From the NCBI GenBank assembly GCA_006226965.1, contig SBGQ01000039.1, forward strand, positions 1 through 46,110: a DNA stretch of 46,110 nucleotides. Direction: 5' to 3'. Of the stretch, positions 21,355 to 46,036 are shown one piece after another. The notes beneath the pieces were generated by a model. It was not told the origin of the DNA. It searched no databases and saw nothing but the letters and a program-made list of their open reading frames with translations. Position numbers and translations under genes: made by a program. Source of the stretch: a bacterium. GTDB taxonomy: Bacteria > Bacteroidota > Rhodothermia > Balneolales > M1805. How positions within the stretch are numbered: the stretch's first letter is position 1; each line of letters begins with the position of its first letter.

Positions 21355-21456
21355 AGCTTTGCGGCGAAAGCCGTAATCTAAACATCCCTGAAACGTGTAT
21401 AGCGAAGCGTATTTATAAATTTAGTTGTTTGTGATACCGTTTTGCAAGGGCATGAC
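21355..21456 (+). repeat. REPIN-like unit 1 (degenerate)
   Basis: Two hairpins of 8-nt arm, 4-nt loop and 8-nt arm lie 54 nt apart: the left at 21355-21378 (arms TTTGCGGC and GCCGTAAT, loop GAAA) and the right at 21433-21456 (core ATACCGTT...GGGCAT, ending TGAC). Both have mismatches. The spacer carries AGCGAAGCGTAT, also present in units 4 and 5, which shows common descent. The unit sits just after trmB and could end its transcript weakly. Confidence 0.6.
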
Positions 21457-21538
21457 AAACAGCTTCTTAGATGTACAGAGTAATAATAGCGAGGAAATTC
21501 TCGACTAAATCTTCAAAAGAGAAAATGAAAACTCTTAA

Positions 21539-22120
21539 TTAATGAGATTTCTTAACCAATTTTGGCCCGAACCAAAGCCAAAGTCCTGTAAAGCTTAAGA
21601 TGAGTAATCCAATCCCCAAGAGATTCATACTAAAAAGTTTAAAGCCTTCAGAAATAATAGAGCCGTCGTGTAAACGCTCAATCCAATCTGCATTTCGTTG
21701 CGAAACAGATAAAACCTTTCCGGTGCTCAGTTCTAATTGAACCTCCCAATCATCATTTTTAAATAAAACTTTTACCATTCCTTTTTTTGGACGAACATCC
21801 ATTCTATCGATTATTGGTTGATTGATGCCTTCTTCCGCCAAAGTTCGTTCTGCAATGGATTTAAGCTCATCTAAAGACAACCAATTCTTAGAATCGTTTT
21901 GCTCAATGTGATGTTTATCATTCGGTTGAAGCCAATCGGATTGCTTTTTCCAGCTTAGCAGGATTCCTGTTATCGAGGAAATCAGAATAAAAAGAAACAA
22001 GGAGATGCCGACATAACGATGCCACGGACGGGTTTGCCGAAGTGAGCGAACATAAGGTCGAGGCTGTTTAGAATGCATGGCTGAAAGTACAATATTCAGC
22101 TTGTTTTCTTTACTAAGCAA
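21539..22120 (-). CDS. PepSY-associated transmembrane protein
   Basis: This is an inner-membrane protein of up to 193 aa with two hydrophobic helices. The first is in PWHRYVGISLFLFILISSITGILLSWKK (about 48 residues in), and the second is near the C terminus (LFSMNLLGIGLLILSFTGLWLWFG). The loop between them, about 100 residues on the periplasmic side, has a PepSY-like LSLDELKSIAERTL...VQLELSTGKVLSVSQR pattern. Such proteins often accompany iron or TonB uptake systems, but none is adjacent. A second Met at residue 15 (22078) is an equally good start. Confidence 0.8.
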   Translation of the reverse strand: MLSKENKLNIVLSAMHSKQPRPYVRSLRQTRPWHRYVGISLFLFILISSITGILLSWKKQSDWLQPNDKHHIEQNDSKNWLSLDELKSIAERTLAEEGINQPIIDRMDVRPKKGMVKVLFKNDDWEVQLELSTGKVLSVSQRNADWIERLHDGSIISEGFKLFSMNLLGIGLLILSFTGLWLWFGPKLVKKSH

Positions 22121-22233
22121 ACGTTAAAGCTTGTTAGAAACCATAAAAAACGATGGTTTCTGTATAAAAGAAATCATCCAATAAATTGCGAAACTTATTA
22201 CTTTCAGGCGAAATTAGATTCAGAAATAAATTT

Positions 22234-22635
22234 ATGGCAAGCATTTTTACTCGCATCATAAACGGTGAAATCCCCTGTTACAAAATCGCAGAAAATGAGC
22301 ATTGTTTTGCATTTTTAGATATTAGTCCAATCGCTAAAGGTCATACATTGGTAGTACCCAAAAAAGAAATTGATTACCTGTTTGATGTAGATGATGAGAC
22401 CCTGCATCACATGATTTCGTTTGCCAAACCAATCGCCAAAGCATTAGATAAAGCTTTCGGAGCCATCAGAACGGGAATTATTGTAGAAGGCTTGTTAGTA
22501 CCTCATGCGCATATTCATTTAGTTCCGATTTATTCAGAATCGCAGGTCGTTGCTTTGGGACATCACAAAGAAGAAATCAGCAAAGAAGAAATGGCCGCCA
22601 TTGCAGAAGCGGTGCGAAAGGAGTTAAACGGATGA
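22234..22635 (+). CDS. HIT-family nucleotide hydrolase (HINT/PKCI type)
   Basis: This is a 133-aa histidine-triad protein expected to hydrolyse nucleoside phosphoramidates or dinucleoside polyphosphates. The triad is visible in PHAHIHLVPI near residue 92, and the N-terminal SIFTRIINGEIPCYKIAE and GHTLVVPKKE are typical of the family. The frame is open to 22186, but the ATG at 22234 gives the standard MASIFTRII start. The stop overlaps the aroQ start by 4 bp (ATGA), so it begins a coupled run with aroQ and the flippase gene. Confidence 0.93.
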   Translation: MASIFTRIINGEIPCYKIAENEHCFAFLDISPIAKGHTLVVPKKEIDYLFDVDDETLHHMISFAKPIAKALDKAFGAIRTGIIVEGLLVPHAHIHLVPIYSESQVVALGHHKEEISKEEMAAIAEAVRKELNG

Positions 22636-23075
22636 GGATTTTTGTATTAAACGGCCCGAATTTAAACATGCTTGGTAAGCGCGATCCTGCTCAATATGGT
22701 TCACAAACCTGGGATGATATCGCACAGTTATTGATTAAAACTTTTCCAGCACATCAGTTTGCCTTCTTTCAAAGTAACCATGAAGGTGAAATTATTGAGC
22801 AATTACATGAATTGGTACACCAGCCTGAGGCGGAAGGATTTATCGGGAATTTTGGCGGTTATACACATACTTCCGTTGCCATCCGCGATGCTTTAGATAT
22901 GTTGAAAATCCCAAAAATTGAAGTGCATCTTTCTAATATTCATGCTCGCGAGGCATTTCGCCATACTTCACTTACCGCTGCAGTGTGTAATGGTTTAATT
23001 TCAGGTTTTGGTGCTCAGAGTTATGTTTTAGGGGTTCGTGCTTTGGAAGAAATTCATAAATCCAATAAAGGATAA
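22632..23075 (+). CDS. aroQ: Type II 3-dehydroquinate dehydratase
   Basis: This enzyme performs the third step of the shikimate pathway, 3-dehydroquinate to 3-dehydroshikimate, as a dodecamer of small subunits. At 147 aa it has the normal length. Catalytic features are LNGPNLNMLGKRDPAQYG (Arg and the Tyr of YG), FFQSNHEGEIIEQLHE, NFGGYTHTSVAIRDAL (usually NxGAYTHTS) and VHLSNIHAREAFRHTS with the catalytic His. It overlaps the HIT gene by 4 bp and ends 2 bp before the flippase start. Confidence 0.96.
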   Translation: MRIFVLNGPNLNMLGKRDPAQYGSQTWDDIAQLLIKTFPAHQFAFFQSNHEGEIIEQLHELVHQPEAEGFIGNFGGYTHTSVAIRDALDMLKIPKIEVHLSNIHAREAFRHTSLTAAVCNGLISGFGAQSYVLGVRALEEIHKSNKG

Positions 23076-23077
23076 AC

Positions 23078-24433
23078 TTGGCAAGACTTCGTCAATTGGC
23101 CAGCGATACCGTTCTGTATGGAATTAGTACGGTTGTTTCGCGTTTTCTAAACTACTTATTGGTTCCGTTTTATACGAAGTTTTTCGATCCGGCAGCTTAC
23201 GGAATTATTGGGCTGATTTACGGAGCAATGATATTCCTGAATGTTTTATTCACGTTCGGAATGGAATCAACTTATTTACGATACGGAGCAGAGGAAGCCG
23301 ATCGAAAACGTGTATACACGCAGCTGCAGTCTTTGGTCTTTTGGGCTTCATTAATCTTAGGTGCTCTGTTTTTTGTTGGTTCACCAATCGTAAAGCCACT
23401 AATATCATTAGAAACGGACAGCTTTCATCTCTATGAGATGATGATTGGTATTATTGTATTAGATGCGTGGTCTGTAATTCCGTTTGCTCAGCTACGACTT
23501 GAAAGAAAAGCGTTGTGGTTCATGATTTTACGCGTTTCAAACGTGTTGATTAATGTCGGGTTGAACTTGTATTTGGTGGTGCAAAAAGGGATGGGTTTGG
23601 AAGCCGTTTTAATTAGTAATGCAGTAGCCTCACTTGTTACCACACTAGCCGTTTGGGCGTTGAATACACCCAAATTGACTCTTCGCTTAGAGTCTGATTT
23701 CATCAAAAAATCGCTGACTTTTGGGCTGCCTTACATTCCTGCCGGCTTGGGATATGCGATAAACGAAGTGTTGGACCGTTTTTTGATTAATGCAATGAGC
23801 CCCGCAGATATAGAAAAAATGTATGGCTTGGGAGTGACGGCGGAACAACTGACGGGGATTTATAACGCTTGTTATAAGTTGGGGATTTTTATGATGCTGT
23901 TTATTCAGATGTTCAGAATGGCATGGCAACCGTTTTATATGTCGCATCATAAAGATGAACAAGCGAAATCGATGTTTTCAAAAAGCTTTTTGGCTATAAA
24001 TGGTGTCGCGGCACTATTAGTTTTGGGGATTGGTTTTTTCAAAGCAGAAATAGCAGCCATTCGAATTCCGTATTTAGATGCCTATTTAATCGGTGAAGTG
24101 TATTGGTCAGGCTTGAGCATTGTACCTTATTTGCTGATTGCCTATTGGTTTCAGTTGTGGTACACACATTTAACCGCCGGAATTGTATTGGCTGAAAAAA
24201 CGAGCATTTTACCGAAAGCAACTTTAATCGGGGCAGGAGTTACCTTAGTCGCAAACGTGATTCTATTGCCATTTTATGGCTTAAATGGTGCGGCTTGGGC
24301 TACCTTACTTAGTTACGGAACCATGGCTTATTATATGTTGTACCAATCATCAAAATATTATCCGGTTGTTTATCCTTGGAAATCGATGACAGCTTTAATT
24401 ATCGGTGTATTAACTTTATTTGTCTTGTTTTAA
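23078..24433 (+). CDS. Wzx-type polysaccharide flippase (MOP superfamily)
   Basis: This is a 451-aa inner-membrane protein with about 12-14 hydrophobic helices. It should flip lipid-linked oligosaccharides to the periplasmic face. The N terminus, RLRQLASDTVLYGISTVVSRFLNYLLVPFYTKFF, is the standard opening of oligosaccharide flippases. The start is TTG at 23078, two bases after the aroQ stop, and the upstream AAAGGAT is a fair SD-like site. No glycosyltransferase or polymerase gene is adjacent, so the substrate (O-antigen, capsule or exopolysaccharide) is open. Confidence 0.88.
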   Translation: MARLRQLASDTVLYGISTVVSRFLNYLLVPFYTKFFDPAAYGIIGLIYGAMIFLNVLFTFGMESTYLRYGAEEADRKRVYTQLQSLVFWASLILGALFFVGSPIVKPLISLETDSFHLYEMMIGIIVLDAWSVIPFAQLRLERKALWFMILRVSNVLINVGLNLYLVVQKGMGLEAVLISNAVASLVTTLAVWALNTPKLTLRLESDFIKKSLTFGLPYIPAGLGYAINEVLDRFLINAMSPADIEKMYGLGVTAEQLTGIYNACYKLGIFMMLFIQMFRMAWQPFYMSHHKDEQAKSMFSKSFLAINGVAALLVLGIGFFKAEIAAIRIPYLDAYLIGEVYWSGLSIVPYLLIAYWFQLWYTHLTAGIVLAEKTSILPKATLIGAGVTLVANVILLPFYGLNGAAWATLLSYGTMAYYMLYQSSKYYPVVYPWKSMTALIIGVLTLFVLF

Positions 24434-24518
24434 TCTGCTCTAGATGAAATAGCTCAAAAAAAGTGTTTCAAGCAGATAGACTAAGCCGTTTCCTGAAGCT
24501 GAAACTAGTTTTTTAGAT

Positions 24519-26555
24519 CTATTTTCTTTTGAAAATCAAGAAAGATAAATCGTCTTCTATTGTATCTAGTGGAGCGAAAGAATCTAAGTCTTTTAAAATG
24601 GCATCAATAACTTCATCGCTGTTTTTTTTGGAGTGCGAACGAATTACTTCTTGTAAACGATCGTAACCGTATTCTTCCTCTTCGGAATTTTTATGCTCAA
24701 TAATTCCATCAGAAACTAAGACCAATAACGAATCTTTGTGCAATTCAGGTAAATCTATTTCATCGAATTCGGCGCGTTTAATGGCGCCTAATGGTAAGCC
24801 GGGTTGGGTTATTAATTGAGTTGAGTTCGTTTTAGAATCCCACAGAACAATATCCGGCATGGCAGCGGTCGACATTCTAAAGCGGCTGTTTTTCAAATGA
24901 AGTAAGCGCATAGCCATATTCATTCGATTGGGGCGAATTTCATGTATACCTTTATTTAGCTTTTCCATGAGCATATTTAAGGTATCTGTGCTCATAAAAG
25001 TTAGCGCAGTTTTAGAAATGGTTACCATTACGCCAGCAGATAAACCGTGACCGGAAGCATCACCAAAAGCAATTAATAAGCTATTGTCATCTTGTGGAAA
25101 GAAATCATAATAATCACCACCTACTTCAGTAGCAGTTTTCATGTACATCGAAACATCGTAGTCATCAAGAAACGGTGGAATTTTTGGAAGCATAGCCGTT
25201 TGCATGGTTCTGGCTTGCTCTAATTCTTGTGTTTTCCGTTGATTTTCAGTTTCAATAGCTTTTGCCTGGATTTCAGCGGCGTGTGCTTGTAATTCAGCTG
25301 TTTTTGCACGGAATTCAGCTTGTTCTGCTCGCATTGTTTCTTTTAGCTGAGCATTTTTAGCTTTTTCAGCTTCGAACGTAATCAACTTAATTCGATCAGC
25401 TAAGGCAAATGATATTAATATCGCTTCCAAACCACCGGCAACAAAATGTGATTTTATCAAAAATTGGATATAGGGTATTATTTGCAGAGATGTGAGAAAG
25501 TTGATAAAAACGGCTACCAGCAGGAATCCTTTAGACAATAAGAAAAAACGTGCCGGTTTATATCCTTGTTTGAGTTTTAACAGTGATGCTATAAAACTCA
25601 CAATGATAACCACTAAAAGAAGTAAAGTGGCAATAGATGCGAATTTTTGATAAAGCCCAAATAAGGTGAGAATGCTGGAGATGAAATAAAATAGTGCAGC
25701 GCCAAGGAGTGTGTAATGGATTTTTGGAAGCCCATTTTTGGTTTCTAGAAATCGTGCTGTGAAAAAGATACTCCAAGCCGATCCAAAATAAAGGCTAAAT
25801 CGATGGATAGAATTAGTGTAAGCCGTAAACGGTTCCCAAATATATTGTGCGCCTAATCCACTTAAAGCTAAAACCACAATCATATAAAAAAGCTGACTGG
25901 CGAAGAATACGAGGTAATTTGTATCCTTAATAACGCCAAATATTACCACATTATAAAGAATCGAAAATAATAAAACGCCTATCAGTAAGGCGTAATAGGG
26001 CGTATACTTATAATATTCTTTGAATATAGAATTCGGCTTTGCAATTACGAATTCAGGTGCTAAAACGCCTTTTGTGCTCACTAAAACATAAAACGTGTTT
26101 TTCCCCGGATAAATAGTAGCAGGTATGTAAATATCATCAATTTGATATGGGCGATTTGTAATAGAAATTTTAGCGCCGGATTCAGTTTGGGCAATTACAC
26201 TGTCATCTTGATTAACCTGATAAAGGTCAATCGAGTGAGTCATACTGTTGCCTAGAAAAATTGCCCGTTCAATAGGTTTATCGCCAGAGTTCATTAAACT
26301 GATTTTAAACCAATAAGGTGTGCCAGTAAAGCCAAACACAGGGCGTTGATTAGTTATTTTTGTAAATGAGGTGTCGTTCAATTGAAGAACGGAATGGAAA
26401 TCTAATAATCTATCGGTGTCGGCTTTGTAGATGAGAGAGGATGTCAGATTTTGAGTTTCCAAATCAGAATTAAAGGACACAATGTCTCCTGCTTCTGCAT
26501 TAAGAAACCCCCATACTTGTAAAAGTATTACTACTGCCAACAATGTGTATTTCAT
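24519..26555 (-). CDS. 7TMR-DISM sensor with SpoIIE-type PP2C phosphatase domain
   Basis: This is a 678-aa membrane receptor whose output is a serine phosphatase. A signal peptide (about 1-22) is followed by a periplasmic 7TMR-DISMED2-like domain (about 40-175), seven hydrophobic helices (about 185-385), an Ala/Glu-rich coiled coil (about 388-450) and a PP2C/SpoIIE domain. The metal-binding acidic residues are present: EVGGDYYDFF (Asp481, Asp484), FGDASGHG (Asp499), VSDG (Asp616) and DD at 668-669. By analogy with SpoIIE/RsbU it should dephosphorylate a STAS anti-sigma antagonist, and one is encoded in the operon that diverges from it 276 bp away. The periplasmic ligand is unknown. Confidence 0.92.
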   Translation of the reverse strand: MKYTLLAVVILLQVWGFLNAEAGDIVSFNSDLETQNLTSSLIYKADTDRLLDFHSVLQLNDTSFTKITNQRPVFGFTGTPYWFKISLMNSGDKPIERAIFLGNSMTHSIDLYQVNQDDSVIAQTESGAKISITNRPYQIDDIYIPATIYPGKNTFYVLVSTKGVLAPEFVIAKPNSIFKEYYKYTPYYALLIGVLLFSILYNVVIFGVIKDTNYLVFFASQLFYMIVVLALSGLGAQYIWEPFTAYTNSIHRFSLYFGSAWSIFFTARFLETKNGLPKIHYTLLGAALFYFISSILTLFGLYQKFASIATLLLLVVIIVSFIASLLKLKQGYKPARFFLLSKGFLLVAVFINFLTSLQIIPYIQFLIKSHFVAGGLEAILISFALADRIKLITFEAEKAKNAQLKETMRAEQAEFRAKTAELQAHAAEIQAKAIETENQRKTQELEQARTMQTAMLPKIPPFLDDYDVSMYMKTATEVGGDYYDFFPQDDNSLLIAFGDASGHGLSAGVMVTISKTALTFMSTDTLNMLMEKLNKGIHEIRPNRMNMAMRLLHLKNSRFRMSTAAMPDIVLWDSKTNSTQLITQPGLPLGAIKRAEFDEIDLPELHKDSLLVLVSDGIIEHKNSEEEEYGYDRLQEVIRSHSKKNSDEVIDAILKDLDSFAPLDTIEDDLSFLIFKRK

Positions 26556-26831
26556 GAACTAACTATCCCTAAATGAGTTGTTCGATACGTTAATTAATAC
26601 GTATCTAAATCTCCTAAAAGCGTACCATACAATGTTTAGGCAATTTACACGATTCGAAGTGATAATCCACAAATAAAATTTGTTAATTATTGACTTAAGC
26701 AAAGATTGCAGATTCCTAAAAACTTGGATTTCGATGTTTTATTTATGGTTAAAATTCCGCATTATCAAAGAGTATATTGTTGATTCTAAAATCAACAATA
26801 AAGCAGATTTAACAAGGGTTAATTCGATTTT
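26556..26831. promoter_or_regulatory. Divergent regulatory region of the partner-switching module
   Basis: This 276-bp gap must hold the promoters of both the SpoIIE gene (minus) and the kinase-STAS-cyclase operon (plus). Two dyads are visible: a perfect one at 26775-26800, listed separately, and GATACGT...ACGTATC at 26584-26605 with an AT-rich 8-bp centre, 29 bp from the SpoIIE start. No perfect TAnnTTTG box was found; TATATTGT at 26773-26780 is the nearest match on the plus strand. Confidence 0.45.
26775..26800. promoter_or_regulatory. Perfect 11-bp inverted repeat upstream of the kinase gene
   Basis: The arms TATTGTTGATT (26775-26785) and AATCAACAATA (26790-26800) are perfectly complementary and flank CTAA. 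The element ends 31 bp before the ATG of the RsbW-type gene. It could be an operator or a hairpin in the leader; no T run follows, so it is not a terminator. It does not resemble the genome-wide repeat hairpins of this window. Confidence 0.6.
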
Positions 26832-27254
26832 ATGTCGCAAAAAATTAAACTATCCATGACCTTGCCCTGCATTGCAGATATTGAAACGGTTGCACATGCA
26901 GGTCTGGAACGAATTGGGACGGAGGGGAAAATACCTCAAGACAAGTTGGAAGAAGCCAAAATGCTTGTCAATGAGGCAATTATTAATGCAATTGAGCATG
27001 CACAAACCAAGAAAAATCAACTTAAAATTGAATTCGAACTTTCAAAAACGGAACTGTTAATCTTTGTTCGCGATTATGGTGCCGGGTTCGATGTTTCTCT
27101 TGTGGATGACCCCAATATTGATGAGAAAATTACAGGTGATTACAAGCGTGGTTGGGGTATAAAACTCATGCAAACCTTATCCGACGATTTTAAAATTGAG
27201 TCCGGCAAAGGCGGGACCAAAATCTACATGTACTTACACTTAAATCAAGCCTAG
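26832..27254 (+). CDS. Anti-sigma-factor-type serine kinase (RsbW/SpoIIAB-like)
   Basis: This is a 140-aa GHKL ATPase that should phosphorylate a STAS antagonist and bind a target such as a sigma factor. The ATP site is complete: N box EAIINAIEHA (48-57), G1 box DYGAGFD (81-87) and G2 box RGWGIKLM (106-113). It has no other domain and no membrane segment. It is followed 6 bp later by a STAS gene, its expected substrate, and is divergent from the phosphatase gene. No sigma factor is encoded nearby, so the target may be elsewhere, or the regulated partner may be the cyclase in the same operon. Confidence 0.92.
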   Translation: MSQKIKLSMTLPCIADIETVAHAGLERIGTEGKIPQDKLEEAKMLVNEAIINAIEHAQTKKNQLKIEFELSKTELLIFVRDYGAGFDVSLVDDPNIDEKITGDYKRGWGIKLMQTLSDDFKIESGKGGTKIYMYLHLNQA

Positions 27255-27260
27255 CAAAAT

Positions 27261-27599
27261 ATGAGTCAAGATTTCACATTGACCTCTTCAGTAGTAAATA
27301 ATTTTTTGGTTATTGAAACAAACGGATATATCAATATCAATGGTGGAGAAACCATCGCTGAAGAAGCCTACAAATTTATAGACCAGGGAATTACTAAAGT
27401 GGTTCTAAACTTGGAACAATCTCGAGTTGTAAATTCCATCGGTATTTCCATTTTAATTGAAATTATTGAGCGTTTACAGGAAGTTGGCGGGCAATTGTAC
27501 TTTACCAATCTCACCCCAACTATCGAAAAAACATTCACCATTATGGGATTGTTTAAATACGCACAAAAAGCTGCTACCAGCAAAGATATAACAGGTTAA
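27261..27599 (+). CDS. STAS-domain anti-sigma antagonist (RsbV/SpoIIAA-like)
   Basis: This 112-aa single STAS domain should bind the upstream kinase when unphosphorylated. The likely phosphoacceptor is Ser59 in VVNSIGISIL; the usual motif is D-S-[ST]-G, and here it reads N-S-I-G, so the Asp is replaced by Asn. The conserved ITKVVLNLEQSRVVNSIG strand-helix junction and the C-terminal FTIMGL match the family. It lies 6 bp after the kinase gene and 1 bp before the cyclase gene, in a tight operon. Confidence 0.92.
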   Translation: MSQDFTLTSSVVNNFLVIETNGYININGGETIAEEAYKFIDQGITKVVLNLEQSRVVNSIGISILIEIIERLQEVGGQLYFTNLTPTIEKTFTIMGLFKYAQKAATSKDITG

Positions 27600-27600
27600 A

Positions 27601-29227: not shown

Positions 29228-29250
29228 ATAAGAAATTCAAAAAGTAGAAT

Positions 29251-31901: not shown

Positions 31902-31977
31902 TAAATCTTACGGCCTCTAATTTTACGAGCTAGTTACGTGCTTTTATTATTTCATTGCGTATCACTTCGCAGCCCCT

Positions 31978-32084
31978 GCTGTGTCCTCGTATGAGAGAAT
32001 CTTGTACCATTTGCGAATGGTTAGCACTTATGGATTCTACATAAATATTAAACGACATGAGACTCCCGTATGCACGGGAGTGAC
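31978..32084. repeat. REPIN-like unit 2
   Basis: A degenerate left hairpin (31978-32001; right arm GAGAGAAT) and a perfect right hairpin at 32061-32084 (arms ACTCCCGT and ACGGGAGT, loop ATGC, flank TGAC) are separated by 59 nt. The spacer contains GAATGGTTAGCACTTATGG and TAAATATTAAACGA, shared with units 3 and 7. Confidence 0.85.
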
Positions 32085-32181
32085 AAGGTGTGATTAATTG
32101 ACATAATTAATCTCTAAAGTTTTATGAGTATTGAATCTCCCACTGAAGAACCCATCGTCATTCCCTCGAATGAGGGAATCT
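32083..32181 (+). repeat. 99-bp block repeated inverted at 46012-46110
   Basis: This block runs from the end of unit 2 through the linker and the left hairpin of unit 3. It is identical, except at position 32169, to the reverse complement of 46012-46110, which is cut by the window end. The linker holds its own dyad, GATTAATT (32092-32099) and AATTAATC (32105-32112). Confidence 0.95.
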
Positions 32182-32262
32182 CCAACGATTTACGAATGGT
32201 TAACGCTTATGGATTCTGTAAAATCCCAAATAACATGAGATGCCCGTATTCACGGGCATGAC
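32157..32262. repeat. REPIN-like unit 3
   Basis: Left hairpin 32157-32180 (GTC flank, arms ATTCCCTC and GAGGGAAT, loop GAAT) and right hairpin 32239-32262 (arms ATGCCCGT and ACGGGCAT, loop ATTC, flank TGAC) are both perfect and 58 nt apart. The two hairpins have different arm sequences but the same geometry and point outwards. Confidence 0.9.
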
Positions 32263-32324
32263 GGAAGTTTTTGACAATGGTATCTAAGGTTTTTTACGTA
32301 CCGAAATCCAGACACTGGAACACC

Positions 32325-32430
32325 ATCATTGCGGCAAAAACCGAAATCTGGTATCTCATAAAAACGCATTTAGCGAAGCGTACTTTTGATTGATTGCCCG
32401 TTTCTAGATGCCGTTTTTCAACGGCATGAC
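32325..32430. repeat. REPIN-like unit 4
   Basis: Left hairpin 32325-32348 (arms ATTGCGGC and ACCGAAAT with two non-Watson-Crick positions, loop AAAA) and perfect right hairpin 32407-32430 (arms ATGCCGTT and AACGGCAT, loop TTTC, flank TGAC) are 58 nt apart. The spacer has TTTAGCGAAGCGTA, linking it to units 1 and 5. Confidence 0.85.
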
Positions 32431-32503: not shown

Positions 32504-33025
32504 TCAGTTTCCAAGCCCCCAGTCTAACCGCCTCCTGTTTTCATTACCTCTGTTTTTGAAAATATAGGTTACCGGAATGCCCACACTAAAACCTGCTCCT
32601 GCGAATATGGCGGCGGTCGTTAAATTTACTGTTGGGTTATTTTCAGATAAAAACGGTCTGTTGGTTTTTCCTAGTAAGCCTGAGTTATAGAGAACAAATC
32701 CTAATGCATACCCGGAAATGAATCCAACTCCGGCACCTAAAACCCGGCTTCGATATCCGATTTTATAAACCTCTTGTATCGGGACTGATAATACCTCTTT
32801 CATCGATCTATCCGAGTACCAGGTAACCCTTTGTTTATTGTAATGAACATAATACCCGGGATTATAGACATAATCATTTTTGTACATATACGTCGGTGTT
32901 CCGCCATGCCAATCAATAGTACGAACGGGTTCAAGCCGTAATGTTAAATCTTCAACATAGATAGATTTTGTACATGCAGATGCACTAATAATCAAAACAA
33001 AAAATAGAACGGCGATTTTCTTCAC
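32504..33025 (-). CDS. Small lipoprotein of unknown function
   Basis: I do not recognise a family. The 173-aa product begins MKKIAVLFFVLIISASAC, a clear lipoprotein signal with Cys18. Residues 20-85 are polar and Tyr-rich (YNPGYYVHYNKQRVTWYSD). Two Gly/Ala-rich hydrophobic segments follow (about 96-116, VLGAGVGFISGYALGFVLY; about 137-155, AAIFAGAGFSVGIPVTYIF), which resemble glycine-zipper membrane segments. It is probably anchored in the outer membrane facing the periplasm. Its stop borders the CATCAACT repeats, and repeat-bearing DNA flanks both sides. Confidence 0.75.
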   Translation of the reverse strand: MKKIAVLFFVLIISASACTKSIYVEDLTLRLEPVRTIDWHGGTPTYMYKNDYVYNPGYYVHYNKQRVTWYSDRSMKEVLSVPIQEVYKIGYRSRVLGAGVGFISGYALGFVLYNSGLLGKTNRPFLSENNPTVNLTTAAIFAGAGFSVGIPVTYIFKNRGNENRRRLDWGLGN

Positions 33026-33311
33026 ATTTGAAGATAAGGATTTTGCAAATTCTGCTGTTGGTTGATGTCTGTGTGTGTTGCTTACTGATAAAAACCGATA
33101 TTGCTAGAATTTCAGCAAGACAAACACATTTAGCTAGGCGTGTTTTTTTGTCATTGCGGCGCAAATCCAGACATCTCCTGAAAACGTGTGCAGCAAAGCG
33201 TAAATATAAACTTGGTAGCTGATTATCGCATGCCGTTTTGCATTGGCATGAACCGAATCAGAATTGAAGCTATTATACAATTTCGCTGCGCTACGCCTTC
33301 GGTGTTATCAA
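33026..33311. other. 286-bp spacer carrying REPIN-like unit 5
   Basis: No convincing gene. ACATTTAGCTAGGCGTG at about 33126-33142 is a partial second copy of the unit spacer, just before unit 5 (33150-33252). A CGCTGCGCTACGCCTTCGG tract follows near 33283-33301, similar to the one at about 30586. Confidence 0.6.
33150..33252. repeat. REPIN-like unit 5 (degenerate)
   Basis: The left edge has the GTCATTGCGGC start of unit 4. The spacer has AGCAAAGCGTAAATATAAA, and the right hairpin at 33229-33252 has ATGCCGTT, a 4-nt loop and ATTGGCAT followed by GAAC instead of GAC. The stems have mismatches, so this is an old copy. Confidence 0.6.
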
Positions 33312-37293: not shown

Positions 37294-40200
37294 ATGAGTT
37301 TATCCTCCATAAGTATTGAACGTCCGGTTTTAGCAACGGTAATGTCTATTACCATAATTCTTTTCGGGATTATCGGATTTACCTATTTGGGAATTCGTGA
37401 ATATCCGTCCGTTGACCAACCAATTGTTACTGTTTCAACGAGTTATGTTGGTGCTAATGCCGATGTTATTGAATCTCAGATTACGGAACCTTTAGAAGAA
37501 TCCATTAACGGTATTTCGGGTATTCGTTCTCTAACTTCTGTTTCTCGTGAAGGTAGAAGTACAATCACTATCGAATTTGAGTTGGAAATCGACATTGACA
37601 ATGCAGCGAATGATGTGCGGGATAAAGTTTCACGAGCTATTAGCAATTTACCGCCGGATATCGAGAATCCGATAGTTTCAAAAGCAGATGCCGATGCTCA
37701 ACCAATTGTGTTTTTGAATGTAAAAAGCGACAGCAGAAACACATTAGAGCTTACCGACTTAGCTATTAACACATTTAAAGAGCGCTTGCAAACCATTTCC
37801 GGTGTTAGCGCAGTTCAGATTTGGGGTGAAAAAAAATACTCCATGCGTTTATGGCTAGATCCGGTTCGTTTACAAGCGTATAAAGTAACTCCGATTGAAG
37901 TTCGAAATGCATTAACCCGCGAAAATGTGGAATTACCATCGGGTCGAGTTGAAGGGAATAATACCGAGCTTACTGTTCGTACTGTTGGCCGATTATATAC
38001 CATCGAGGACTTTAATAATTTAATTATCCGCGAAGAAAACGGGCGTGTTATTCGTCTTCGTGATGTAGGTTATGCACTTCTTGGCCCTGAAAACGAACGA
38101 ACTGTTTTAAAACGTGATGGAATTCCGATGGTTGGCGTGGTTTTAGTTCCGCAACCGGGCGCGAACAATATTGCTATCGCCGATGAATTTTATGCACGTG
38201 TTGAACAAATCAAAAAAGATTTACCGTCCGATATTGAATTAGGCGTCGGTTTTGATATCACCAAATACATTCGCCAGTCAATCAGCGAAGTGCAGGAAAC
38301 CATTTTTACGGCTTTCCTATTAGTAGTAGCCATTATTTTTATGTTTTTACGAGATTGGAGAACAACCATCATTCCGGTAATTGTGATTCCTATTTCGTTG
38401 ATTGGCGCGTTCTTCATTATGTATATAGCCGGGTTTTCGATTAACGTGTTAACCTTGTTGGCAATCGTACTCGCGATTGGTCTGGTTGTGGACGATGCTA
38501 TTGTGGTTATGGAAAACATCTACTCCAAGATTGAAAGCGGAATTGCTCCTCTGCAAGCTGCTATGCAGGGAAGTAAAGAGATTTTCTTTGCCGTGGTTTC
38601 TACTACGGTTGCTCTAGCTGCTGTATTCTTACCGGTAATTTTCTTGCAGGGTTTAACCGGGCGCTTATTCCGTGAATTCGGAATTGTAATTGCCGCTTCT
38701 GTAATTATTTCGTCGTTTGTGGCTTTAACGCTCAGCCCTATGTTGTGTAGCCGCATCTTAAAACACAGAGCAAAACAACCGTTTTTATATGAGTTGACTG
38801 AACCCTTTTTCGTTTGGATAAACGCGAAATATGAGTCGTCGCTTTTATTGTTTATGCGACGAATTTGGCCGGCATTCTTTGTAATTGTGGCTTCAATTGT
38901 CGGAATCGTATTCTTGGTTAAAAAAGTACCGTCAGAATTATCGCCGTTAGAAGACAGAGGAAGTGTACGTGTGTATGCTACTGCGCCGGAAGGAGCTACT
39001 TTCGAATACATGGATTATTACATGGATAAAGTGGTTCAATTGGTTAAACGTACCGTTCCTGAGTTAGATGGCTTAATTACAGTTACCAGCCCGGGATTTG
39101 GCGCATCAAGTTCTGTAAACTCCGGTTTTGCCCGTCTTATTTTAGTTGATAAGGAACTTCGTGAACGAACACAGCAAGAAGTTGTAGATCAGCTCTCGAA
39201 AGATATTTCTGTATTGTCGGAAGCCAGATCTTTCGTTTCACAAGAGCAATCTATTGGTAACAGACGCGGGGGTTTGCCTGTTCAATTCGTAATTCAGGCA
39301 CCGAATTTTGAAAAATTAAAAGACGTAATTCCTGCCTTCTTGGAAAAAGCGAATGCACACCCAAGCTTGAATTTCGTGGACATCAACCTGAAATTCAATA
39401 AACCGGAAATCCAATTAGATATCGACCGTGAAAAAGCGAGAAGTTTAGGTGTTTCTGTGTTAGATATTGCACAAACTTTGCAATTGGCGTATTCAGGTCA
39501 ACGTTTTGGTTATTTCATCAAAGATGGAAAACAATATCAAGTTATTGGTCAGGTTGAGCGACAATTCCGTGACGCTCCGCTCGATTTACGTTCGCTTTCG
39601 GTAAAAAATGCCAACGGAGAACTTATTCAGTTAGATAACCTTGTTCGACTTACCGAGCAAAGTAGTCCGCCTGCATTATTCCGTTTCGACCGCTATGTTT
39701 CTGCAACCGTTTCCGCTGGTTTGGCACCGGGTAAAACTTTAGGTGAAGGCATAGAGGCCATGCGAGCAGTTGCAGATCAGGTTCTGGATGATAGTTTTAC
39801 AACCGCATTAGACGGAACAAGCCGAGATTTTGCTGAGAGTTCCAGTTCTTTATTATTCGCCTTCTTGTTGGCTCTTATTTTGATTTATTTAGTTCTCGCT
39901 GCGCAATTTGAGAGCTTCCGCGACCCGCTCATCATTTTTATTACAGTGCCTTTGGCTCTTGCCGGCGCTTTCGGTTCTCTTTGGTTATTCGATCAAACAC
40001 TGAACATTTTCTCTCAAATCGGGATTATTATGTTGATAGGTTTAGTAACCAAGAACGGAATTTTGTTGGTAGAATTTGCCAATCAAAGAAAAGAAGCCGG
40101 ATTATCGGTTCGTGAAGCCGCTATTGATGCAGCTAAATCACGTTTTCGTCCGATTTTGATGACCAGCTTGAGTACCGTTTTAGGTATTCTGCCGATTGCT

Positions 40201-40356
40201 TTAGCCTTGGGCGCGGGTGCGGAAAGTCGAGTTTCCATGGGTATTGCGGTAATTGGCGGACTTGTTTTTGCCAGTTTGTTAACACTGTATGTGATTCCGC
40301 CGATTTACACGCTTCTTTCAAAAGAGTTGAAAAGTGCATCTTCAACAGCAGCATGA
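37294..40356 (+). CDS. RND-family multidrug efflux pump (AcrB/MdtB-like)
   Basis: This 1020-aa inner-membrane proton antiporter exports drugs or other hydrophobic compounds as a trimer. It opens SLSSISIERPVLATVMSITIILFG and has two large periplasmic loops (about 40-335 and 560-860) and 12 helices. The proton-relay aspartates in helix 4 are Asp400 and Asp401 (GLVVDDAIVVMENI), and a conserved Lys is seen in helix 10 (GLVTKNGILLVEFANQ). The length and these residues place it in the HAE-1 group rather than the metal-exporting CusA group. The stop overlaps the OMF gene by 4 bp. Confidence 0.96.
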   Translation: MSLSSISIERPVLATVMSITIILFGIIGFTYLGIREYPSVDQPIVTVSTSYVGANADVIESQITEPLEESINGISGIRSLTSVSREGRSTITIEFELEIDIDNAANDVRDKVSRAISNLPPDIENPIVSKADADAQPIVFLNVKSDSRNTLELTDLAINTFKERLQTISGVSAVQIWGEKKYSMRLWLDPVRLQAYKVTPIEVRNALTRENVELPSGRVEGNNTELTVRTVGRLYTIEDFNNLIIREENGRVIRLRDVGYALLGPENERTVLKRDGIPMVGVVLVPQPGANNIAIADEFYARVEQIKKDLPSDIELGVGFDITKYIRQSISEVQETIFTAFLLVVAIIFMFLRDWRTTIIPVIVIPISLIGAFFIMYIAGFSINVLTLLAIVLAIGLVVDDAIVVMENIYSKIESGIAPLQAAMQGSKEIFFAVVSTTVALAAVFLPVIFLQGLTGRLFREFGIVIAASVIISSFVALTLSPMLCSRILKHRAKQPFLYELTEPFFVWINAKYESSLLLFMRRIWPAFFVIVASIVGIVFLVKKVPSELSPLEDRGSVRVYATAPEGATFEYMDYYMDKVVQLVKRTVPELDGLITVTSPGFGASSSVNSGFARLILVDKELRERTQQEVVDQLSKDISVLSEARSFVSQEQSIGNRRGGLPVQFVIQAPNFEKLKDVIPAFLEKANAHPSLNFVDINLKFNKPEIQLDIDREKARSLGVSVLDIAQTLQLAYSGQRFGYFIKDGKQYQVIGQVERQFRDAPLDLRSLSVKNANGELIQLDNLVRLTEQSSPPALFRFDRYVSATVSAGLAPGKTLGEGIEAMRAVADQVLDDSFTTALDGTSRDFAESSSSLLFAFLLALILIYLVLAAQFESFRDPLIIFITVPLALAGAFGSLWLFDQTLNIFSQIGIIMLIGLVTKNGILLVEFANQRKEAGLSVREAAIDAAKSRFRPILMTSLSTVLGILPIALALGAGAESRVSMGIAVIGGLVFASLLTLYVIPPIYTLLSKELKSASSTAA

Positions 40357-41702
40357 GACGTAAGATGATGAATAGAATGAGTACGAAAAACGTGAACAGG
40401 TTTGTATTACTAGTAAGCTTACTATGTGCCGGATTGGTAACTACGAGCAAGGCACAAGATACCTTGAGTTATCAAAAAGCACTTGAATTAGCCTTAAAAA
40501 ACAATTTTGGAATAAAATCGGTTCGGATTACATCGCAAATAGCAGAAAATGATGCTTCTTTTGGGAATGCCGGCTTTTTACCTGATATAAACGTGACTGC
40601 CTTACAATCTAAAAGTTCTACGGATACCGATATGGAATTTGCTACGGGTGGAACGATTAACCGAAAAGGTGCTGAGGCTACACAATTCAACGCAAGTGCA
40701 AATCTTAACTGGACTTTATTTGACGGTTTCAGAATGTTTATCCAATACGATAGACTCAAAACCATGAAGGAAGCGGAAAAACAAGCCTTGTATGCACAAA
40801 TAAATACTACTTTATCTCAGGTCTCCATCACATACAATCAAATAAACAGGATAAAAGAATCGCTGGATTTGTTAGCTGAAACGATTGCGATTTCGCGCGA
40901 ACGTCTTCAATTGGAACAGAATAAATTGATTATCGGAACGGGCAGCGAGTTAGAAGTTTATCAGGCAAAAACAGATTTAAACGCAGATACTTCGGCGTAT
41001 ATGCGTCAGGTTATTCAATATCAAACCGTAAAAAATCAATTGGTTGAGCAATTAGCATTAACTCCGGGCGTCGATTTTGAAGTGAGTGATTATTGGAAAG
41101 ACCCTGTTTTACCGGAATTGGCTGAGTTAGCTGATGTTGCAAGAAATCAAAACCCGGATGTGAAGCGTCAGACCTTGTTACATAAAGACCAGCAACTTGC
41201 TTTAAAATCAGTAAAAGCGGAATATTATCCTGAGTTGGATTTTAATTTGGGATATACCTACACCGACCAGGAGTCGGAAGCGAGTCAGGTTAAGTTTCTA
41301 ACATCGAACGGATATAATTACAATCTAACGGCAAGATTTAACCTGTTTCAGGGTTTTAATCAATCCAGAAGAATTCAAAATGCGAAGTTGCTAGAACGCT
41401 TGAATAAAGAGTCTTTGCAACAGGTTCAGTTGCAATTAGAAACGGCAGTGTATACAACTTGGCAGTCATTACAGGAAGCAACATCTATCTATAATTTGGA
41501 AGAATCTAATTTTGAGTTTGCTCAAAAGACCTTAGATATAAGTCGTGAAAAATATAATCAAGGTTTGATTTCTGCGGTTGAGTTTCGGGAAGCGCAACGG
41601 AATTGGGTAAATGCCAGATTGCGTTTGCTCAATGCTGAATATGATGTTCGAATCAATCAGGTTGATTTGATGAGACTTGCCGGGAAGTTCGTTCGAGAAT
41701 AG
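40353..41702 (+). CDS. TolC-family outer-membrane efflux channel
   Basis: This 449-aa outer-membrane factor completes the tripartite pump. The signal peptide is about residues 16-34 (RFVLLVSLLCAGLVTTSKAQ). The mature protein begins DTLSYQKALELALKNNFGIK, the usual repeat start, and consists of two homologous long-helix halves (about 50-240 and 255-449), each containing a beta hairpin for the barrel. The start overlaps the pump stop (ATGA), so the two are translationally coupled. Several Met codons near the N terminus (residues 5, 6 and 9) are alternative starts. Confidence 0.94.
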   Translation: MRRKMMNRMSTKNVNRFVLLVSLLCAGLVTTSKAQDTLSYQKALELALKNNFGIKSVRITSQIAENDASFGNAGFLPDINVTALQSKSSTDTDMEFATGGTINRKGAEATQFNASANLNWTLFDGFRMFIQYDRLKTMKEAEKQALYAQINTTLSQVSITYNQINRIKESLDLLAETIAISRERLQLEQNKLIIGTGSELEVYQAKTDLNADTSAYMRQVIQYQTVKNQLVEQLALTPGVDFEVSDYWKDPVLPELAELADVARNQNPDVKRQTLLHKDQQLALKSVKAEYYPELDFNLGYTYTDQESEASQVKFLTSNGYNYNLTARFNLFQGFNQSRRIQNAKLLERLNKESLQQVQLQLETAVYTTWQSLQEATSIYNLEESNFEFAQKTLDISREKYNQGLISAVEFREAQRNWVNARLRLLNAEYDVRINQVDLMRLAGKFVRE

Positions 41703-42029
41703 CAACTTGCGCTGAGTTAATGGTGCATTTTGATTGTTTGACTAATGATTGCAGCCATATCCGCTTTTTGGGAAACTAGTTCAAAATGTGTTTCTGCTCT
41801 TCTCTATGTTTTATGGGTCATGCCCGTGAATACGGGCATCTCGTACGATTTATGAAGTAATTATTGCTCAGAAACTAATCAAACTTGTAAATAATTGGAG
41901 ACTCCCGCTTTCGCGAGAGTGACAGAGTGTTTATGGGGATATGCTGTTGTAAAACGACACCCAGCATCATTCCAGCAACAATCCCACACATCATCATTTC
42001 AACCATCAAAAATCCGTATTATTCTGCCC
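41703..42029. other. 327-bp spacer carrying REPIN-like unit 6
   Basis: Unit 6 occupies 41817-41923. GGGAAACTAGTTC near 41770 resembles the hairpin edge at 34883-34890. A weak solo hairpin of the same geometry may sit at 41940-41963 (ATGCTGTT...AACGACAC). Toward the right end, CATCATTTCAACCATCA is a simple-sequence tract. The adenosyltransferase promoter should lie between 41964 and 42029, but no clear box was seen. Confidence 0.6.
41817..41923. repeat. REPIN-like unit 6
   Basis: Left hairpin 41817-41840 (GTC flank, perfect arms ATGCCCGT and ACGGGCAT, loop GAAT) and right hairpin 41900-41923 (arms ACTCCCGC and GCGAGAGT, one mismatch, loop TTTC, flank TGAC) are 59 nt apart. The spacer is only partly similar to that of units 2, 3 and 7 (CGTACGATTTATGAA). 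Confidence 0.85.
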
Positions 42030-42572
42030 ATGAAAATCTATACGAAGAATGGCGATAAAGGCGTAACCTCTTTGTTTGGCGGTGAGAAAGTTCTAAAGAA
42101 TCACGCGCGTATTGAAGCCTACGGTACAGTTGACGAATTAAACTCAGTTCTTGGAGTGATACACTCATTTGAACCGATTGAATACATCAAAGAGAAATTA
42201 ACCGCCATCCAAAAAGAGCTGTTTGTAATCGGAGCTGATTTAGCTACACCCAACTCGAAAAAGTCGCATGTGGTTCGAATCAATGAAGTATCCATAGCGA
42301 ATATGGAATCCTATATTGACGAAATGGACGCCGAGTTACCCGCATTAACCACGTTTATTTTACCGTCGGGCACTCAAGCGGCAACTCAGCTACACGTTGC
42401 AAGAACGGTTTGCCGTAGAGCAGAACGCGCTGTTTTATCTGCTATGCATTCAGAGGAAATCAATCCGCTTGTCTTGCAATATCTGAATCGATTATCTGAT
42501 TTATTCTTTGTTATGGCACGATTCGAAAACTTCAAAAAGAACCAAGAAGAAACCCGCTGGTTACCGGATTAA
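42030..42572 (+). CDS. ATP:cob(I)alamin adenosyltransferase (PduO type)
   Basis: This enzyme attaches adenosine to cob(I)alamin to make coenzyme B12. The 180-aa helical bundle starts MKIYTKNGDKGVTSLFGGEKV, the ATP-binding signature of the PduO family, and has AYGTVDELNSVLG and VARTVCRRAERAVLS. The frame runs upstream to 41895 inside a repeat hairpin, so the ATG at 42030 is the credible start. B12-dependent enzymes are not encoded in the window; the carboxyltransferase at 14985 could feed methylmalonyl-CoA mutase elsewhere. The TAA overlaps the next ATG by one base. Confidence 0.94.
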   Translation: MKIYTKNGDKGVTSLFGGEKVLKNHARIEAYGTVDELNSVLGVIHSFEPIEYIKEKLTAIQKELFVIGADLATPNSKKSHVVRINEVSIANMESYIDEMDAELPALTTFILPSGTQAATQLHVARTVCRRAERAVLSAMHSEEINPLVLQYLNRLSDLFFVMARFENFKKNQEETRWLPD

Positions 42573-44545
42573 TGGCTTTATCAACCAAACACAAAAAGTT
42601 TATTGATGAAAATCGTACCAAATGGAATACGAAACAACTCGCTGATAAAATCAGTCAGTCTGTGGAGGAAGTACAAGCGTATTTAGATGAAAACACCCTG
42701 CCTGAAATCAGTTCATCAAAAGCAAAATGGTTTACCCTAATTGCTGTAAGTATTCCGATTGTATTCTTTTTTGCTCTTGAGTTAGGTTTACGTCTGGCGA
42801 ATTATAAAGGTGACTTAAGTTTATTTATTGTCGCTGAAAGTCTGAATCGTGAATATACATTCCCCAACCCTAATTATGCCAAACGTTACTTTTTTAATAC
42901 AGCCGTTGTACCTAATCCGGGTAAAGACGCTTTTCTAACTCAAAAACCCGCTAACGGGTTTAGAGTTTTTGCATTAGGCGGGTCATCAGCCGCCGGTTAT
43001 CCGTATATGTCTAATGTAAGGTTCACTAAATATGCAGAATTAGCTCTGAAAGATGTATTGCCTGATAAGTATGTGGAAGTGGTGAACTTAGGCACATCAG
43101 CTATTAATACATATACATTGTATGATCAGGTTGATGAAGTTTTAGAGCAAAAACCGGACGCTATTTTTATCTATGCCGGACACAATGAATTTTACGGTGC
43201 TTTAGGTGTTGCGTCCTCTGAAAGTTTGGGCGCGTTCCCTGCTTTTGTACGTATGTACCTCGGCATTCAGCGGTTAAAAACCTTTTTGTTGTTGCGCGAT
43301 GTAATTACTTGGATTATGGCACAAGTACAAGGTGAACCGCATAAGTCCGGTACGCTGATGGAACAAGTTGTTCGTGAACAGGAAATTCCGTTAGAAAGCG
43401 ACTTATACCAATTAGGGAAAATTCAGTTTGAGAGTAACATGATGGCTATCGTTTCCAAATTTAGAAGCCATGGAATACCCGTCTATATTTCCAGTTTGGC
43501 ATCCAATCAAAAAGATCAAAAGCCTTTTATTTCATCTGAAAGTGCAAAAAATCCTAAAGCAATCGACATATATCATCAAGCGCAGGTAGCTTTTTCAAAA
43601 GGTAATATTCAACTAGCTGATTCTCTGTTTACTTTTGCTAAAGATTTAGATGCACTTCGCTTTAGAGCCAGTTCCGAGTTTAATACACTTATTAAAGAAA
43701 TGGCTGAAAAAACCGGTTCTGTGTATGTATCAGCTGAAGAAGATTTCAAAGAAAAATCGCCGAATGGAATAATTGGTAACGAGCTCATGTTAGAGCATTT
43801 ACACCCGAATGTTGACGGATACTCAACGTTAGGAAAGTCTTTCGTTGATGTGTTTTTATTAAGCCCTCCGAAAAACTTACGTGTGAATCGCACAAATTTG
43901 AGGGATTGGACATATTACAATGAACATGTATATGTAACTGATTTTGACAAAACGATAGCTGAAATTAAACTCCTCAGATTAAAGTCGGGTTGGCCGTTTG
44001 TTCAAAAGAATGAGTACAAAAATGTGATTATTTATAAACCCGAAACGATTGCTGACAGCCTCGCTTTAGATGTTGTGGAGAATAAAATAACCCTAGAAGA
44101 GGCTAAAGTTAAACTTGCAGAAACATATACAAAAAGGCGTCAGATTGATAAGGCTATTCATGAATATCTAAGCATTATTGTTGACATTCCATACAGTGCT
44201 TCTGCTTATGTATTTGTTGGGAAATTATATATCGACAGTAATCGGTTAGATAAGGCCGAACCGTTTCTTGAGATTGCAAACCGTTTAGATGCGAATGCCT
44301 TTACCAAAAAAATGCTGGGCGCCATCAAAATTGATAAAAAAGAGTACGAGTCTGGCATTCGATATTTAAAAGAATCTATTCAGTTAAACCCCAAAGATCC
44401 GCAGGCATTGTATAATCTTGCCGGCGGGTATGCTTTAAACCGTCAGTTTAAAGAAGCTAAAGAAACGGCTGAAAAAGTAAAGGAAATAAATCCTAACTAT
44501 CCGGGTTTAATGAGCTTAATCAACCAATTAAAAAACATAAAATAA
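42572..44545 (+). CDS. Membrane-anchored SGNH/GDSL hydrolase with TPR repeats
   Basis: This is a 657-aa protein with a short cytoplasmic N-terminal helix-rich part (1-50), one membrane helix (about 53-72) and an extracytoplasmic SGNH hydrolase domain. Block I has Ser138 in GGSSAAG, block II Gly174 in GTSAIN, block III Asn205 in GHNEFYG, and the late His lies in EHLHPN (409-411). A short TPR-like insert occurs near 330-365, and at least three TPR units follow at about 520-650 (YVFVGKLYIDSNRLDKAEPFL, LGAIKIDKKEYESGI, LYNLAGGYALNRQFKEAKE). It may act on acyl or acetyl groups of envelope polymers. It is coupled to the adenosyltransferase gene and lies 14 bp before glmM. Confidence 0.85.
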   Translation: MALSTKHKKFIDENRTKWNTKQLADKISQSVEEVQAYLDENTLPEISSSKAKWFTLIAVSIPIVFFFALELGLRLANYKGDLSLFIVAESLNREYTFPNPNYAKRYFFNTAVVPNPGKDAFLTQKPANGFRVFALGGSSAAGYPYMSNVRFTKYAELALKDVLPDKYVEVVNLGTSAINTYTLYDQVDEVLEQKPDAIFIYAGHNEFYGALGVASSESLGAFPAFVRMYLGIQRLKTFLLLRDVITWIMAQVQGEPHKSGTLMEQVVREQEIPLESDLYQLGKIQFESNMMAIVSKFRSHGIPVYISSLASNQKDQKPFISSESAKNPKAIDIYHQAQVAFSKGNIQLADSLFTFAKDLDALRFRASSEFNTLIKEMAEKTGSVYVSAEEDFKEKSPNGIIGNELMLEHLHPNVDGYSTLGKSFVDVFLLSPPKNLRVNRTNLRDWTYYNEHVYVTDFDKTIAEIKLLRLKSGWPFVQKNEYKNVIIYKPETIADSLALDVVENKITLEEAKVKLAETYTKRRQIDKAIHEYLSIIVDIPYSASAYVFVGKLYIDSNRLDKAEPFLEIANRLDANAFTKKMLGAIKIDKKEYESGIRYLKESIQLNPKDPQALYNLAGGYALNRQFKEAKETAEKVKEINPNYPGLMSLINQLKNIK

Positions 44546-44559
44546 GATATAGGTAACGT

Positions 44560-45903
44560 ATGGCATTAATGGTCAGTGTTTCGGGAATTCGAGGCATTTA
44601 CGGTGAAGATTTGCACCCTGAAAATTTAGTTCCGTTTACAGCGGCATTCGGAACTTGGGCTAAAAAAGGCAAAGTGGTAGTTGGGCGCGATTCTCGTGTC
44701 ACCGGCCCATTGGTTGAATCTATTGTAATTGCTACACTTAGAAGCGTTGGTTGCGATGTAATTTCGGTTGGAATAGCCCCGACTCCGACAGTTGCGATGA
44801 GCGTTTTAGAACATAAAGCCGCAGGCGCTATTATGATTAGCGCTTCGCACAATCCGGCGCAATGGAACGCTTTAAAAATGCTGAATGAAAAAAGCGAGTA
44901 TTTAGATAGTGAACAGGGCAAGGAAGTCATCAAGATTACACAGGAAAAATCCTATTCGTTTGTGGATTATAAATCAATGGGAAGTATTCTTGTTGATGAA
45001 AACGCTGTTCAAAAGCATATTGACGCCATTTTAGCACTCCCTTATATCGATGCAGATTTAATTCGCTCTAAGAAATTTCGAGTAGCCGTTGATGCCGTAA
45101 ATGGTGCGGGCTCTGAATCCATTCCTGCATTGCTAGTGGCTTTAGGTGTTGCTCATATTGAAAAATTGTATTGTACCCCGGATGGACTTTTCCCTCACAA
45201 TCCCGAGCCACTTCCCGAACATTTAAAGGATATTTGTGAATTAGTTCCCAAAGCAACATGCGATATTGGTGTTGTGGTTGACCCAGATGCCGACCGTTTG
45301 GCATTAGTTGATAATAATGGACGCTTTTTTGGTGAAGAATACACTTTGGCGGCAATTAACGATTTTTATTTGGCTAAATATCACGGTGATATCGCGGTGA
45401 ATTTGTCTTCATCTATGATTAATGACTGGGTGGCAAAGAAATACGGAATTGTTTGTCACCGCGCTGCAGTTGGCGAAATCAATGTGGTTAAGGTGATGCA
45501 GGCTAAGAATGTAGTAATGGGCGGCGAAGGAAACGGCGGCGTTATTAATCCTGATTTGCATTTTGGCCGAGATGGATTGGTTGGAATTGCCATGATGCTT
45601 CAGTTTATGGCTGAAAGCGGAAAAACTTCTGCTCAAATTCGAGATGATTTACCTACGTATTACATGGGTAAGTTTAAACTAGAGTTAGGCTCTGTTAATG
45701 CTGATGAAGCTTTAGAACAAGTAAAGAAAGCCTATGCTCAATATGAAATTAATCTGGTTGATGGTGTAAAGATTGTGATGCCTGACGGATGGATTCACCT
45801 TAGAAAATCGAACACGGAACCGATTATTCGTATTTATACCGAAGCTGATTCTCAGGAAAAAGCTAACAAATTGGCACAGCACGTCATGTCTTTAATGAAA
45901 TAA
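44560..45903 (+). CDS. glmM: Phosphoglucosamine mutase / phosphohexomutase
   Basis: This enzyme interconverts glucosamine-6-phosphate and glucosamine-1-phosphate for UDP-GlcNAc and cell-wall synthesis. The 447-aa sequence opens MVSVSGIRGIYGEDL. The phosphoserine loop is ISASHNP (Ser96), the Mg2+ loop DPDADRLALV (Asp241, 243, 245), the sugar loop GEGNGG, and the phosphate-binding loop RKSNTEPIIRIYTEA near the end. Phosphomannomutase/phosphoglucomutase relatives share these loops, so GlmM is the preferred but not the only reading. It is co-directional with the SGNH hydrolase (14-bp gap). Confidence 0.9.
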   Translation: MALMVSVSGIRGIYGEDLHPENLVPFTAAFGTWAKKGKVVVGRDSRVTGPLVESIVIATLRSVGCDVISVGIAPTPTVAMSVLEHKAAGAIMISASHNPAQWNALKMLNEKSEYLDSEQGKEVIKITQEKSYSFVDYKSMGSILVDENAVQKHIDAILALPYIDADLIRSKKFRVAVDAVNGAGSESIPALLVALGVAHIEKLYCTPDGLFPHNPEPLPEHLKDICELVPKATCDIGVVVDPDADRLALVDNNGRFFGEEYTLAAINDFYLAKYHGDIAVNLSSSMINDWVAKKYGIVCHRAAVGEINVVKVMQAKNVVMGGEGNGGVINPDLHFGRDGLVGIAMMLQFMAESGKTSAQIRDDLPTYYMGKFKLELGSVNADEALEQVKKAYAQYEINLVDGVKIVMPDGWIHLRKSNTEPIIRIYTEADSQEKANKLAQHVMSLMK

Positions 45904-45925
45904 TTCTGAAAAGACGTAAGGTATT

Positions 45926-46036
45926 GTCACTCCTGCGAATGCAGGAGCCTCATTTCGTTTAATATTTATGCAGAATCCATAAATAAGTGCTAACCATTCG
46001 TAAATAGTACAAGATTCCCTCATCCGAGGGAATGAC
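45926..46036. repeat. REPIN-like unit 7
   Basis: Left hairpin 45926-45949 (GTC flank, arms ACTCCTGC and GCAGGAGC, end mismatch, loop GAAT) and perfect right hairpin 46013-46036 (arms ATTCCCTC and GAGGGAAT, loop ATCC, flank TGAC) are 63 nt apart. Read on the minus strand it has the order and spacer of units 2 and 3. It lies 22 bp after the glmM stop and could help end that transcript. Confidence 0.85.

Follow-up and report, generated by a model that had tools for sequence, protein, structure and literature searches.

The question raised by this locus is to which kind of repetitive DNA seven short pairs of hairpins in one bacterial contig belong, and by what means their copies became dispersed. 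The window, i.e. the whole stretch of 46,110 nucleotides analysed here, is the entire contig C12 of a 3.78-Mb draft genome (184 contigs), and the nearest named relatives of a Dus protein from it belong to Balneolales and Balneolaceae (~70-75% identity). The original prediction had described seven REPIN-like units of two outward-facing hairpins each, and direct reading together with alignment recovered all seven where it had placed them. We suggest that they are very probably CGTC-1 type REPs in the form of head-to-head dimers, non-autonomous and dispersed, and represent a known kind of repeat in a new host. The features of the window are as follows:

21355..21456, + strand: unit 1, type-B dimer decayed on both sides (sequence; BLAST relation to the family of unit 4)
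31973..32084, + strand: unit 2, type-A dimer (sequence, palindrome scan, model match)
32085..32156, no strand: 72-bp segment between units 2 and 3, with an inverted copy beyond unit 7 (inverted-repeat comparison)
32157..32262, + strand: unit 3, best-preserved type-A dimer (sequence, palindrome scan, model match)
32325..32430, + strand: unit 4, type-B dimer (sequence, palindrome scan, BLAST)
33150..33252, + strand: unit 5, type-B dimer with the left hairpin decayed and part of it deleted (sequence)
41817..41923, + strand: unit 6, type-A dimer of palindromic form, model R1 matching both strands (sequence, model match)
45926..46036, - strand: unit 7, type-A dimer in reverse orientation, with unit 2 as its sister by spacer (sequence, model match, spacer tree)

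Perfect palindromes with 8-nt arms and a 4-nt loop (8-4-8) occur eight times in the window, compared with 1.15 expected from Markov-resampled sequence. Six of them fall inside units (32062, 32160, 32240, 32408, 41820 and 46014), and the remaining two are AT-rich and look like chance. Among the 14 hairpins of the seven units six are perfect, two more have one mismatch (41901, 45929) and the remaining hairpins have decayed or take a different form. The geometry that had been called strictly conserved is real in these six hairpins, but the wording was too strong in view of the decayed ones and of the left end of unit 2 (31973-31997), an extended variant that is not 8-4-8. The full layout is seen in unit 3, which reads GTC-ATTCCCTC-GAAT-GAGGGAAT-CTC ... 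GAG-ATGCCCGT-ATTC-ACGGGCAT-GAC. The right hairpin of unit 2 is perfect (ACTCCCGT-ATGC-ACGGGAGT), as is that of unit 4 (ATGCCGTT-TTTC-AACGGCAT, then a T-run), whose left hairpin is decayed with two mismatches; unit 1 shows TTTGCGGC-GAAA-GCCGTAAT on the left and ATACCGTT-TTGC-AAGGGCAT on the right. An inverted pair of 128 nt (32083-32210 and 45983-46110, 95% identical) shows that flanking DNA, too, is common to the units at 32 kb and those at the end of the contig. No Rfam family matched in a search of the window. Between units 4 and 5 lies an ORF of 173 aa (32504-33025, minus strand) with no Pfam match.

The signature of the hairpin was derived from 93 hairpins that have a GTC tag and no more than one mismatch, some of which are near-copies within arrays. 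They had been selected by the GTC tag and the first base of the tail; neither the sequence of the loop nor the second base of the tail was used. A well-formed hairpin consists of YGTC, an 8-bp stem closed by a GNAN loop, and CTN, and the pair faces outward around a spacer. The base before GTC is C in 46 and T in 37 cases (C/T in 83/93), the loop is GNAN in 81/93, and the tail, which is unpaired, starts with CT in 91 of the 93. The constant asymmetric flank of the original prediction (G...GAC) does exist, although it is better written as YGTC outside and CTN inside the dimer. Perfect 8-bp stems come in 15 types, all with A as first base and with T, C or A as second. Whereas the loop length of four was preset by the scan in this genome, the 8-4 geometry emerged by itself in relatives, where stems of 8 or 9 and loops of 4 or 5 were allowed. 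All 22 intact dimers have two stems unlike each other. The strand preference in folding energy is small. GNAB and GNNA are exceptionally stable DNA tetraloops.

That the arms vary together was confirmed on alignments that were not selected by pairing. For type A, with copies taken by BLAST, the covariation score over 16 pairs is 0.232 compared with 0.139 after shuffling (reached in 0/500 shuffles) and at most 0.082 in slid controls; 88.6% of the cells pair, and changes on both sides are found in 22 cells vs 6.7 in shuffles. Type B behaves similarly but more weakly (0.145 vs 0.094 shuffled, 1/500; slid at most 0.052), and G-U pairs are present in both alignments. Two paired changes within a single stem (ACTCCCGT / ACTCCTGC) separate units 2 and 7, which are sister copies on the spacer tree (support 100/99). 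On this tree, which as a whole is weakly supported, the main right-stem type needs about 4 switches. Much of the covariation can be traced to a few inherited stem types.

Both spacer subfamilies of the original prediction, type A (units 2, 3, 6 and 7) and type B (units 1, 4 and 5), turned out to be genome-wide families. BLAST with a 180-bp query from unit 3 hits 53 places in the genome, and a covariance model built from 26 type-A copies gives 86 matches, some of which count one place twice, once per strand, owing to the near-palindromic dimer. Unit 4 as BLAST query finds 29 type-B places. Counted by place and with unit 5 included there are 69 type-A and 30 type-B copies, i.e. about 99 elements in 62 clusters, 19 of which hold two to seven elements each. 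Some copies form tandem arrays with a period of ~117 bp on C145, 153 on C18, 181 on C169 and 267 (A plus B) on C41; as each array has its private period, local duplication after insertion is suggested. Dispersed copies are mostly 75-88% alike (BLAST, this genome), which argues against recent movement. As a side observation, single CGTC hairpins form head-to-tail tandem arrays at C84:160-704 (L224) and C41:28260-28513 (L167), with periods of ~78 and 73 bp, the usual form being the head-to-head dimer.

The two ends of the dimer differ in their surroundings. Among the aligned type-A copies about half, if not more, carry the extended left end (CGTCATTTCA...GTAGCACCTGCGGTGTCCTCGAATGAGGGAATCTC, in which the count of short repeats varies), and the variant of unit 2 is common to about 20 other copies. 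Folding of this end as one hairpin was rejected, as it was no better than in shuffled sequences. Outside the right ends, AGCTTTTTTCGTTC and a common flank are often present, which implies that some copies are part of larger composite repeats. The window segment 32431-32500 and many genomic right flanks share AGCTTTTTTCGTTCCCAAATC, followed by short repeats similar to ATCATTTCATC. Runs of at least four A within 14 nt outside GTC accompany 21/45 right-type hairpins vs a background of 12%. Among 22 intact dimers, target-site duplications did not exceed shuffled pairing. Regarding gene context, 17 clusters are convergent, 17 unidirectional, 7 divergent and 2 inside an ORF, with 19 near contig or segment ends; for each of the seven window units the 3' end of an adjacent gene is no more than about 110 bp away.

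These properties are closest to the CGTC-1 class, as described in the survey by Di Nocera, De Gregorio and Rocco (2013, PMC3733652). There, CGTC-1 REPs have the tag CGTC or TGTC, an 8-bp stem, a 4-nt loop and a 3-nt tail; they form mainly head-to-head dimers, in many families heterodimers, and lie near 3' ends, without association to transposase genes. The class includes dRS3 of Neisseria and RPE-6 of Rickettsia, and its hosts include Bacteroidetes and Chlorobi. The elements described here agree in the YGTC tag, the 8-bp stem starting with an A-T pair, the 4-nt loop and the presence of an unpaired 3-nt tail, as well as in being mostly intergenic head-to-head heterodimers with conserved spacers and no dedicated transposase. 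They deviate from that survey in several points: the tail is CTN instead of the CCA found in most, not all, CGTC repeats; T is often replaced by C or A at the second stem position; clusters (19/62) and tandem arrays are frequent, whereas clusters were rare in the survey; and about 20 type-A copies are extended on the left and form no 8-4-8 hairpin there. Balneolales are not among the hosts named in the sections of PMC3733652 considered here, and the present host would extend the range of the class.

The original prediction had raised mobilisation by RAYT transposases, established for paired inverted REPs of other bacteria, as a possible mechanism. Its architectural part stands: the REPs are paired in inverted orientation with their tags outside and occur in many copies across the genome, as in REPIN/RAYT systems with GTAG REPs, and the pairs enclose a conserved spacer and have compensatory stems. 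Read in this way the elements would be true REPINs, their CGTC hairpins being served in trans by a RAYT that is encoded in this genome or was lost. The genome does possess one RAYT-like gene. A search with PF01797, which finds a Y1 gene in 37/60 genomes, yielded none here; this result was misleading, since the more specific NF047646 recovered two fragments, each at the right end of its contig (C169:13221-13560 and C153:15310-15527, L307 and L308; E 8e-8 and 8e-6). One fragment matches positions 6-79 of the model and the other 69-133, in complementary parts, and the two have the 9 bases CATCACATG in common; by this 9-nt overlap they would apparently join as a single gene split across two contig ends. 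In the joined gene, short repeats and the palindrome GGTAGAACCATCACATGTGATGGTTCTACC would lie between the HUH half (NHVH) and the tyrosine half (YIIRNP). Provided that the two contig ends are adjacent, the RAYT of this genome thus appears to carry a GTAG-type palindrome (GGTAG...CTACC) inside the gene and in this respect resembles subclass 2.4 RAYTs, which contain GTAG-type REPs within the gene (PMC6006769). The palindrome has no other occurrence in the assembly, and no CGTC hairpin was found near either fragment. This speaks against RAYT mobilisation, as does the tag, which is YGTC and not the GTAG (GTRG) foot of REPIN/RAYT systems. In 15 repeat-bearing relatives the surroundings of 71 Y1 loci contain 9 CGTC-like hairpins in 116 kb and those of 37 further RAYT loci none in 72 kb, which amounts to 9 in about 187 kb around 108 genes. 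In a sole and ambiguous case (L303, G025 C1:503620-505210) a RAYT is situated between two outward-facing, head-to-head CGTC hairpins (at 500 and 1305); read by eye, the start of the dimer spacer seems to recur on both sides, which would fit a RAYT that landed in or beside dimers. Two other RAYTs of the order, both matching NF047646, have long terminal inverted repeats of their own with unrelated sequence (CCTCGTTCCGTAGCTC...). A match to NF047646 is present in 16/16 repeat-bearing but also in 24/44 repeat-free genomes (60 checked), a comparison confounded by family membership. The co-occurrence of Y1 genes and repeats (p 0.002 over the order) is ascribed to phylogeny since it loses significance within the main family (p 0.11). 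RAYT genes without flanking CGTC hairpins agree with PMC3733652, in which CGTC repeats are not tied to transposases. On this evidence we regard mobilisation by a RAYT acting on CGTC hairpins as decidedly unlikely.

Two further explanations were weighed. The elements could be structured RNAs at gene 3' ends, i.e. terminators or stabilisers of mRNA, whose stems are selected by RNA folding and whose copies are spread by recombination. The proximity of all window units to 3' ends, the few divergent copies in the genome, the G-U pairs in both alignments and the A-runs outside GTC, which correspond to a U-run after the stem in RNA, favour this explanation. It is at odds with the mirror-oriented ends, the sharp boundaries and the conserved, largely unpaired spacer, none of which a terminator needs; moreover, terminator-like sites in the region are not above shuffled sequence, and among the GNAN loops are GAAT and GCAT, neither of them a GNRA loop of RNA. 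This explanation is possible but unlikely. Alternatively, the dimers might be MITEs of a classical DDE insertion sequence with the hairpins as terminal inverted repeats. Their size of about 106 bp and their inverted ends fit, and as short, non-coding inverted repeats near genes they resemble NEMIS/Correia and ERIC, from which they differ in that each end is a separate hairpin, itself a palindrome, that the stems within a dimer are unlike each other and that no target-site duplication was found in the 22 dimers. The search for insertion sequences, which covered the Y1 and IS110 families, showed IS110 to be absent from this genome and from 14/15 repeat-bearing relatives. An origin as MITE is highly improbable, and IS110 was rejected as mobiliser because of this absence.

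It is likely that the CGTC dimers are moved by an enzyme acting in trans, which may be a RAYT, another HUH protein or something else. Such an enzyme would read tag, loop and tail, because these stay constant while the stem sequence varies freely, and its tolerance of any self-complementary stem would result in a fixed geometry with varying stems. The recognised part would be the hairpin formed by the single strand that reads YGTC-stem-GNAN-stem-CTN, and copies would be moved by binding of the folded hairpin and its asymmetric feet. In this genome the activity is probably old, and the arrays may have arisen later by local tandem duplication. For right ends with a T-run (nearly half) a side role as hairpin-plus-U-run 3' elements is plausible. 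Tentatively, a more specific proposal can be made, which we hold to be unlikely: a single-strand endonuclease would act on the dimers by recognising the GNAN DNA tetraloop together with the YGTC/CT feet, irrespective of the stem sequence, and it would come either from a RAYT lineage with changed foot specificity, of which L303 could be a rare trace, or be an undescribed enzyme shared by the repeat-bearing genera. No mobilising enzyme has been assigned to CGTC repeats since they became known in 2013, and finding it would settle the spread of one of the two large REP classes. For the present, the gain consists in a new host and a sharper signature, in which the parts to be read by any enzyme (tag, loop and tail) are told apart from the freely varying stem.

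The order allows a comparison in this respect, because close sister genera differ in the presence of the repeats. While the dimer model matches 8/60 genomes, including the one studied here, a 24-base pattern of the CGTC-1 hairpin matches 25/129 genomes of the order, namely this one and genomes from five genera, all in one other family. The reversed pattern, used as control, gave 0 matches in carriers and 1 match in one non-carrier genome. Dimers of the relatives keep the 8-4-8 geometry and the rule of unlike stems, with a length of 85-87 bp in three genomes and with different spacers, which suggests a conserved REP and a spacer subject to turnover. A few of the relatives' hairpins have CCA-like tails. 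At several of their loci (L135-L138, L141, L144) the dimer often contains, in place of one 8-4-8 hairpin, a longer bulged one of the ATTCCGGC...GCGGAAT type.
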